From: Leclercia adecarboxylata
GTDB taxonomy: Bacteria > Pseudomonadota > Gammaproteobacteria > Enterobacterales > Enterobacteriaceae
NCBI RefSeq assembly: GCF_006171285.1
Contig: NZ_CP040889.1
Location: forward strand, 1,674,001 to 1,738,000
Direction of reading: 5' to 3'
DNA length: 64,000 nucleotides
Part shown: in pieces, positions 47,603 to 48,628 of the stretch
Layout: every line of letters starts with the position of its first letter
Position numbering within the stretch: position 1 is the stretch's first letter
Notes under the pieces: model-generated
Told to the model about the DNA's origin: nothing
What the model saw: only the letters and a program-made list of their open reading frames with translations
Databases searched by the model: none
Position numbers and translations under genes: made by a program

Positions 47603-47640
47603 AAGACAGCCTCTGATGAGTTTATTTAACCACCGCAGAA

Positions 47641-47650
47641 GGGACCAACC
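47641..47650 (-). promoter_or_regulatory. seqC-like target motif
   Basis: GGTTGGTCCC on the minus strand, eight bases after the antisense RNA stem and 38 bases before the start codon. It is complementary over eight bases to the seqB-like motif. Confidence 0.65.
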
Positions 47651-47658
47651 TTACTGGC

Positions 47659-47734
47659 GATGGACTGAACGGAGTTGGTCCTACCGGCCTCATCAGCTAC
47701 CGGCGCGCCTTACGGCGCCACCGTCCAGCCCATC
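47659..47734 (-). ncRNA. CI/C4-type antisense immunity RNA (satellite phage P4-like)
   Basis: A 76-nt minus-strand element. The ends GATGGGCTGGACGG and CCGTTCAGTCCATC pair over all 14 positions, with two G-U wobbles. Inside are a GCGCC-GTAA-GGCGC hairpin with a GNRA-type loop and, before the closing strand, the unpaired seqB-like GGACCAAC (plus-strand coordinates 47674-47681), complementary to motifs on either side. P4 CI RNA is about this size and works by pairing seqB with seqA and seqC to cause early termination of the left operon; phage P1/P7 C4 RNA is related. The architecture is seen directly; the family assignment is from layout and memory, not a covariance search. Confidence 0.75.
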
Positions 47735-47791
47735 ATTGAGATGTAACGGGCTGCGCGATAAAAATGAGCTTTATCACGGATGAGAATAACA

Positions 47792-47803
47792 GGGGACCAA
47801 CCC
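47792..47803 (-). promoter_or_regulatory. seqA-like target motif
   Basis: GGGTTGGTCCCC on the minus strand, close to the predicted transcript 5' end and upstream of the antisense RNA. It shares nine bases or more with seqC and is complementary to seqB. Confidence 0.65.
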
Positions 47804-47831
47804 TGACGCCTGATTTTGCAGGCGTGGCGAG

Positions 47832-47860
47832 AAGATAACGCGTTGCCGTTTGTGTATCAA
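47832..47860 (-). promoter_or_regulatory. PLE-like promoter of the antisense RNA cassette
   Basis: Minus strand: -35 TTGATA (47855-47860), 17-bp spacer, -10 TATCTT (47832-47837). The predicted start is near 47825, at the edge of a 6-bp hairpin CGCCTG/CAGGCG (47807-47824). Confidence 0.6.
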
Positions 47861-47883: not shown

Positions 47884-48228
47884 CATAACCAGAAATTAAA
47901 TCTCCAGCCGCGAAAATAGTCAGGTAAGCAAAACACCCGCAGCGGCTCCCTGGTCCGGCTGAAAATCGCCGAAGCGTTGACTGGAGGCCGGGGCGAGGCG
48001 CATGGATGCGCAGAGAGGGGGCGACCTACAGGGATGTAGGATCGCCCCCGACCCGATAGCCGGAAGGAATAAGCTGAGGGTACCGCGAAGCGGCGATTTT
48101 CTTTGCCGGGAGCCGGGGTGGTCAGGGGGGCGGCGGCAAGCCCCCCTGACACGTTCACGGGTGACGTGGCATACAGAGAAGCAAGGAACGTAAAGTGAAC
48201 GGAACCACCACCGTTGCCACATGTTCAC
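47884..48228. repeat. Structured 345-bp direct repeat, copy 1
   Basis: Matches 48272-48616 at a constant offset of 388 bp with no indel. Two internal differences (48012 and 48014) plus one at the extreme left edge are visible. It contains a 14-bp hairpin (GGGGGCGA-CCTACA, loop GGGA, bulged A; 48017-48049), an 11-bp hairpin (GTCAGGGGGGC / GCCCCCCTGAC; 48121-48150) and a GTTCAC...GTGAAC pair (48153-48200). A REP unit follows. Nature unknown; structure suggests an RNA or a non-autonomous mobile repeat. Confidence 0.85.
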
Positions 48229-48271: not shown

Positions 48272-48616
48272 CATATCCAGAAATTAAATCTCCAGCCGCG
48301 AAAATAGTCAGGTAAGCAAAACACCCGCAGCGGCTCCCTGGTCCGGCTGAAAATCGCCGAAGCGTTGACTGGAGGCCGGGGCGAGGCGCATGGATGCGCC
48401 GGGAGGGGGCGACCTACAGGGATGTAGGATCGCCCCCGACCCGATAGCCGGAAGGAATAAGCTGAGGGTACCGCGAAGCGGCGATTTTCTTTGCCGGGAG
48501 CCGGGGTGGTCAGGGGGGCGGCGGCAAGCCCCCCTGACACGTTCACGGGTGACGTGGCATACAGAGAAGCAAGGAACGTAAAGTGAACGGAACCACCACC
48601 GTTGCCACATGTTCAC
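48272..48616. repeat. Structured 345-bp direct repeat, copy 2
   Basis: Second copy of the element at 47884-48228, with the same hairpins. The 388-bp unit (345 bp plus REP-bearing spacer) is therefore tandemly duplicated. It lies about 77 bp from the gntU stop, downstream of gntU transcription. Confidence 0.85.
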
Positions 48617-48628
48617 CCCAGTGCGGGG

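Follow-up and report, generated by a model that had tools for sequence, protein, structure and literature searches.

A likely autoregulated orphan C4 antisense-RNA module with a two-part address between yhgN and gntU

The window, a stretch of 64,000 nucleotides of Leclercia adecarboxylata DNA, carries between yhgN and gntU a minus-strand cassette that is likely an autoregulated orphan C4 module. It comprises a promoter, a leader with a first target, a C4 antisense RNA, a second target and the gene of a 148-residue protein (T148), which is followed by the convergent yhgN (Table 1). We consider it probable that pairing through two addresses silences T148. According to the proposed mechanism, the leader transcript would be processed to a C4 RNA of about 76–88 nt, which would pair through two separate segments, b' with b1 and b2, and a' with a1 and a2. 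Pairing at a2 would mask the Shine-Dalgarno sequence and thereby turn T148 translation off, and of all the steps this masking is the most directly supported. Pairing at target 1 would cause early termination or neutralise nascent transcripts, and free C4 would act alike in trans on any transcript with an equal two-part address. Transcription of the cassette, its processing by RNase P, repression in cis and action in trans are what we infer from the arrangement of these parts.

Table 1. Features of the cassette and its surroundings (positions in the window)
Feature	Position	Strand	Remark
Promoter, TTGATA-17-TATCTT	47860-47832	-	17-nt spacer
c4-a1b1 / isrK-like stretch, includes b1	47838-47760	-	sub-threshold Rfam matches
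b1, GTTGGTCC	47801-47794	-	A of the sequence-only reading; first target of b', within a small hairpin
a1, CTCATC	47784-47779	-	first target of a', directly after b1
C4 antisense RNA, Rfam RF01695	47740-47653	-	14-bp closing stem, two hairpins
a', CTGATGAG	47696-47689	-	loop of C4 hairpin 2; more variable address
b', GGACCAAC	47681-47674	-	B of the sequence-only reading; second address, unpaired in the C4 fold
b2, GTTGGTCC	47649-47642	-	C of the sequence-only reading; second target of b'
a2, CTCATCAG	47620-47613	-	second target of a'; overlaps the T148 Shine-Dalgarno
Shine-Dalgarno of T148, AGAGG	47614-47610	-	
T148, 148-aa protein gene	47602-47156	-	predicted helical bundle; no family match
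~290-bp repeat, copy 1	47940..48228	+	upstream of the cassette, antisense to T148
~290-bp repeat, copy 2	48328..48618	+	tandem
RyhB sRNA, elsewhere in the window	54532-54467	-	83.5 bits

The C4 fold and its two pairings

A sequence-only reading had described an antisense RNA with complementary targets on both sides and proposed a scan with the Rfam C4 covariance model. Scanning the whole window returned C4 at 69.4 bits (cut-off 45, E 1.9e-11), and the fold of the C4 core (-45.0 kcal/mol) reproduced the 76-nt element closed by a 14-bp stem that the reading had noted. The promoter, the segments A, B and C and the gene start all lie where it had placed them on the minus strand. The Rfam match and the pairing together bear out its claim of a C4-family antisense RNA flanked by two targets: b' pairs with b1 and b2, and this A-B-C pairing is kept and covaries in 17 orthologues. 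It is only half of the address, the other half being the pairing of a' with a1 and a2. That second address was absent from the reading, as were the ~290-bp flanking repeats and the further C4 loci of the genome.

Two promoter-like sites occur in the region compared with 0.9 in shuffles, which is weak on its own. Among 21 leaders, all at the site except that of the unplaced G051, 18 have the -35 and -10 elements with the 17-nt spacing at equal distance; the exceptions are G011, which has no promoter, and G025 and G057, in which the -10 element is altered. Just upstream of C4, two Rfam models scored below their cut-offs, c4-a1b1 with 33 bits (cut-off 46.7) and isrK with 45.4 bits (cut-off 50). 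There is also a weak terminator-like hairpin at b1, and the region holds three such sites compared with 2.0 in shuffles.

The pairing was assessed in an alignment of 17 leaders (A1), 16 of them at the site and one from the unplaced G051. For the upstream set (b1-b'/a1-a'), 96.2% of cells are paired, with 34 two-sided cells, and for the downstream set (b'-b2/a'-a2) the values are 96.0% and 40. None of 500 shuffles reached the observed number of paired cells, the number of two-sided cells or the covariation score in either set. At a1, 100% of cells are paired and two of the six pairs show changes on both sides. Two other covariation measures were unexceptional: the number of pairs changed on both sides (five per set) was equalled or exceeded in 27 and 68 of 500 shuffles, and that of further pair types in 500 of 500. 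The reason is that most of the variation amounts to a single step between the two types. None of the nine type-2 leaders is paired at the outermost b position. Comparative sequence analysis thus shows the family membership, both pairings and their covariation.

We also asked how general the two-part pairing is among 58 unique C4 loci (59 were obtained from 71 model matches, and double entries were removed by hand). One of them, L215, was visibly misread and was scored as a miss. Runs of at least seven Watson-Crick pairs within the same locus were present for b' upstream in 57 loci, for b' downstream in 55, for a' downstream in 51 and for a' upstream in 44; the corresponding rates for mismatched loci are 15.6%, 13.5%, 8.1% and 7.7%. 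Pairing within the own locus exceeds that between mismatched loci, and none of 2000 shuffles reached the observed means. In most loci, the a2 match lies ~30–38 nt 3' of the C4 core. The two-part rule, which applies to most of the 58 loci, leads to a simple prediction of which C4-bearing elements would exclude one another.

The two allele types found at the site differ in these addresses. As isolated segment duplexes (upstream/downstream), type-1 a'-b' gave -28.8/-29.7 kcal/mol with its own targets and -18.0/-15.7 with type-2 targets; for type 2 the values were -33.4/-25.2 with its own and -24.1/-18.9 with type-1 targets. When whole C4 and whole target were cofolded, cognate pairs were not consistently favoured: for type-2 C4, ddG was 0.0 with its own downstream target and -6.4 with the type-1 target. 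The window's C4 reads GAT at a position that is GGT in the other 16 leaders. Since these bases may correspond to the GGW motif that PMC5320573 reports in connection with RNase P cleavage, processing of the window's C4 is uncertain. The labels a' and b' were assigned by position and may be reversed relative to the same paper, which makes b' the loop that occludes the ribosome-binding site in P1/P7.

Alleles, block exchange and repeats at the site

A cassette or its trace, intact or decayed, adjoins yhgN and/or gntU in 22 of 60 same-genus genomes. Two of these have one flank only (gntU in G056, yhgN in G057), owing to contig or rearrangement breaks. In G051, counted apart from the 22, the cassette is on a contig piece with neither flank. 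There was no trace in 37 of the 60 genomes on the piece examined (~3.8 kb past yhgN), with gntU off the piece in 13 of these 37. Among 29 loci from other genera, three occupy the same site (L067, L068 and L091).

In 13 genomes, yhgN is followed by other chromosomal genes (YhhQ-like, DcrB-like and MFS-like by ORF reading), with no gntU 3' of it within the piece, and the interval resembles a rearrangement breakpoint there (L097, L098, L103, L107, L108, L114, L116, L133, L135, L136, L140, L143 and L148). A two-gene insert (391–394 and 699 aa) separates yhgN from gntU in L102 and L132, and a single ORF of 380–385 aa, transposase-like by eye, does so in L126 and L137. In L118 (G023) the gap measures 8.7 kb, with the cassette at its gntU end.

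Type 1, with b1 GTTGGTCC, comprises G000, G009, G016, G018, G025, G028, G050 and G052; type 2, with b1 ATTAGCCT, comprises G004, G011, G023, G026, G049, G051, G056, G057 and G059. In the 60 genomes the exact type-1 string occurs in ten places, all at the site, and the G018 variant is likewise at the site. Of the 13 places with the exact type-2 string, eight are at the site, four are elsewhere and one is on the contig of the unplaced G051. G049 is a natural a/b recombinant, of type 2 in its b address and of type 1 in its a address. A third, target-only allele has b1-a1 and neither the C4 core nor b2-a2 (L100, L115 and L124, in G005, G020 and G029, respectively); it keeps the promoter, and the T148 frame is open from its own start. 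The junction is alike in these three genomes although their T148 genes are not sisters. The cassettes of G001, G035 and G046 are degraded or fragmentary.

Next, we compared the leader with the gene that follows it. In 30-base steps, T148 is 83–100% identical between the opposite-type genomes G000 and G059 and 67–100% identical between G050 and G004, and the promoter regions are 87% and 97–100% identical, respectively (70% in the step before, at -300, in G050/G004). From about -210 to the start codon, identity drops to 53–77% in G000/G059 and 58–90% in G050/G004, and G018/G026 show the same pattern. Over the same stretch the same-type pair G000/G052 is 90–100% identical. Divergence between type-1 and type-2 blocks is 32.5%. 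Among type-2 loci it is 4.9% in the block and 35% at T148 third positions, and among type-1 loci 12% and 36%, respectively.

Nine changes are required to place the three labels on the T148 tree (shuffled mean 7.6), where two opposite-type pairs are sisters, G000/G059 (99/94) and G050/G004 (97/92). In the gntU tree, five changes account for types 1 and 2 (16 loci, G001 being typed by b1 alone) and three for cassette orientation (19 loci). G004 and G050 are again sisters there (100/99), so at least one leader swap is clear from their opposite types and sister positions in both trees. The gntU tree joins G000 to G052 and G059 to G011; as the two trees disagree there, it may be the gene, not the leader, that moved in these four genomes. 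The other block differences appear, from the sequences, to be mosaicism without direction. The recognition block has been exchanged between lineages with the gene left in place, which hints at selection on specificity itself. In the open-licence literature searched, in which the topic was not queried by name, there was no account of addresses being exchanged at one fixed site of an orphan C4. The site offers a natural experiment: many species have the same gene in the same place, whereas the RNA addresses have been swapped, in G049 recombined between a and b, and in the target-only allele reduced to b1-a1.

The GC-rich repeat of ~290 bp upstream of the cassette has at least 27 matches in the source genome, at least 19 of them longer than 250 bases; these counts are lower bounds, as 40 of 63 candidates were scored. 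Partial matches occur in 5375 of 5426 E. coli genomes and are unannotated in the 20 places listed; the places opened were mmuM-tauA, asmA-yegH and sstT-alx. Inverted copies flank the cassette in G052 (L146), G020 (L115) and G046 (L141), as well as two other C4 cassettes of the source genome (L183 and L184). Recombination between inverted repeats would explain why the cassette is found in either orientation at the same site. The repeat could itself be a scar, or it could serve as a substrate for recombination.

T148, other C4 loci and the possible role of the module

T148 evolves with a median dN/dS of 0.16 at a median dS of 0.75 (136 pairs from 17 copies, 16 at the site). Judged from these coding sequences, T148 is under purifying selection, and the low ratio means that the protein is maintained where intact. 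A genome-wide search for PF00589 tyrosine integrases found none within 136 kb of the cassette, the nearest being ~136 kb off, in agreement with the earlier description of a cassette standing alone.

Nine C4 loci occur in the source genome (5.76 Mb, 8 contigs), with seven of the loci on the main contig. For six of these seven, that of the window included, the nearest PF00589 integrase is over 50 kb away. The five others at such distance are L183, L184, L189, L185 and L188. By ORF reading, L183 lies before tauA, L184 between FdhF-like and FepA-like ORFs, and L189 after a ClpA-like ORF.

The multiplicity of loci makes it possible to ask whether addresses are shared within a genome. Both addresses were readable in 89 of 111 pattern-found loci, from 45 genomes; the 22 unreadable loci were left out and three double entries dropped. 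Of 81 same-genome pairs, none shares both addresses; eight share b', and all eight differ in a'. Shuffling loci gave 4.3 collisions on average and none in 18 of 2000 shuffles, and shuffling a' within b' classes gave 2.0 on average and none in 172 of 2000. This shuffling null is not neutral, because an address is inherited by the loci that occupy equivalent positions across genomes. The absence of shared addresses fits incompatibility between equal addresses, a suggestive and weak indication.

The foremost alternative, which we regard as possible if somewhat doubtful, is a cis switch adopted by the host, in which C4 keeps T148 off until a signal arrives and confers no immunity in trans. The purifying selection on T148 at the site, the position of the cassette between host genes away from integrases and the strong conservation of the address block within each type all speak for such a switch, but it gives no reason either for the exchange of blocks between discrete address types or for the distinct addresses among the C4 loci read within a genome. 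A broader proposal, to our mind unlikely, extends the module to the Enterobacter orphan C4 set as a distributed RNA heteroimmunity repertoire. Its members would hold private a' x b' addresses, block exchange would be selected for new specificity, invaders with the same address would be silenced and T148 would be released by target titration.

Viral sequences were searched for possible bearers of the same addresses. Among the matches listed in this limited, pattern-driven search, none of 51 viral C4 cores carries a full site address. The type-1 scan yielded a C4 core in four of 52 stretches, in addition to L230 from the search with the E. coli T protein, and the type-2 scan, among the matches listed, at least 29 cores in the first 80 loci and at least 17 in the other 40; the address-pattern matches were mostly due to chance. 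When 173 viral loci were scanned for five site addresses, the single string match (L373) was on the strand opposite to both C4 cores, and all seven control loci were matched. The two-part layout was visible by eye in most of 34 viral C4 cores inspected.

T148 had no significant match in Pfam, PHROGs or NCBIfam (best NCBIfam E 0.21). Eighteen homologues likewise gave nothing below E 0.04 in Pfam, PADLOC or PHROGs and nothing below 0.5 among PDB sequences. The structure predicted from five sequences is a helical bundle (mean pLDDT 71.4, pTM 0.67), for which fold searches returned no match at E <= 0.001 and mostly generic helical bundles. Among viral contigs, no close relatives were found with the window protein or the L085 protein as query, and one contig was found with the E. 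coli T protein. Phage records gave one short record by protein and nine weak DNA matches to the leader, plasmid records seven matches and genome contigs four loci. Of 5426 E. coli genomes, 919 have DNA resembling part of the leader and gene, with less than 80% covered in every case.

The module as proposed has to accommodate the three of 21 leaders with an absent or altered promoter and several broken T148 copies, both of which count against it, as does the finding that none of the 51 viral C4 cores examined carries its address. At the site the T148 ORF is truncated in G025, G028 and G049, has lost its start in G009 and is degraded in G001, G035 and G046. Broken, promoter-less and fragmentary copies, together with the 37 of 60 genomes showing no trace on the piece examined (gntU off the piece in 13), would suit a decaying remnant of an integrative island without present function. 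We judge this improbable, as neither the low median dN/dS at such a dS nor the covarying pairings are expected of drift in intact copies. A type I toxin-antitoxin-like addiction module, with C4 as RNA antitoxin and T148 as toxin, is less credible still: an antisense RNA adjoining one small gene, the scattering of such small cassettes and the leader-like isrK locus of Gifsy-1, which controls a toxic product according to PMC4825925, speak for it, but T148 has no significant family match, and the three target-only loci, open T148 frame included, disfavour strong toxicity unless T148 is silenced there in trans.

Clues to where the orphan module came from are provided by the surroundings of other T genes. 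In eight of 69 C4 loci, which are not a random sample, an ORF of 68–80 codons overlaps the T stop by 4 nt; these include three E. coli islands, and the ORF is HTH_35 in both cases tested. The window cassette retains T148, with no HTH gene 3' of it. We infer as the most likely origin integrative islands in which C4 would control T and a translationally coupled HTH regulator near integrases.

Comparison with known systems

The sequence-only reading had called the cassette P4-type. P4 CI acts by termination via seqA and seqC (PMC4825925), and, compared by description, both systems have an antisense RNA flanked by two complementary leader targets; b1-b'-b2 has the seqA-seqB-seqC arrangement. This order is the part of the assignment that stands, whereas the two-part pairing with a2 over the Shine-Dalgarno follows the logic of P1/P7 c4. 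P4 is moreover a satellite with its own integrase, and here the nearest one is far away. The origin as a P4 satellite remnant is weakened by this distance and by the gene content of three E. coli relatives (L009, L010 and L011). These are C4-T-HTH-integrase islands, two of which adjoin a tRNA gene, and were not recognised as P4 satellites. Their T proteins are ~51% identical to T148 and they share the two-part C4 pairing; they differ in having integrases, cargo and an HTH gene that overlaps T, none of which adjoin the window cassette. Gifsy-1 IsrK resembles the cassette in the isrK-like b1 region, below the Rfam cut-off, and in a leader before a small ORF, but it is part of a prophage rather than an orphan, and by the window ORFs no gene matching anrP or antQ adjoins the cassette.

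In P1/P7, c4 (Citron and Schuster 1990, as cited in later papers) pairs near a ribosome-binding site and underlies heteroimmunity (PMC12197685); RNase P, also named in PMC11143913, processes it to about 77 nt (PMC5320573). The likeness includes the C4 fold, two pairing segments, a target over the ribosome-binding site, the proposed processing from a longer transcript and address variation as in heteroimmunity (PMC12197685, PMC5320573). The downstream target expected of a C4 system is present, as a2 overlaps AGAGG. On the other hand, the cassette would control T148 instead of icd/ant, lacks a phage integrase and is fixed at a host site; the immI operon order, c4 followed by icd and ant, is replaced by a single gene and then convergent yhgN. 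PMC5320573 gives occlusion of the P1/P7 ribosome-binding site to b' and specificity to a' upstream, whereas here the more variable loop of hairpin 2 pairs at the Shine-Dalgarno, and the labels may not match.

The Group 1 C4-like sRNAs of Acinetobacter baumannii are multi-copy, chromosomal and variable in a', and either phage targeting or adoption by the host has already been proposed for them (PMC5320573). Thus, multi-copy chromosomal C4 RNAs and both proposed roles were known from that species. The A. baumannii RNAs are transcripts seen by RNA-seq, whereas those described here are known from sequence, each C4 with its cis targets. Here, in addition, T-type genes lie 3' of many C4 RNAs, and the exchange of the recognition block can be traced at one site.
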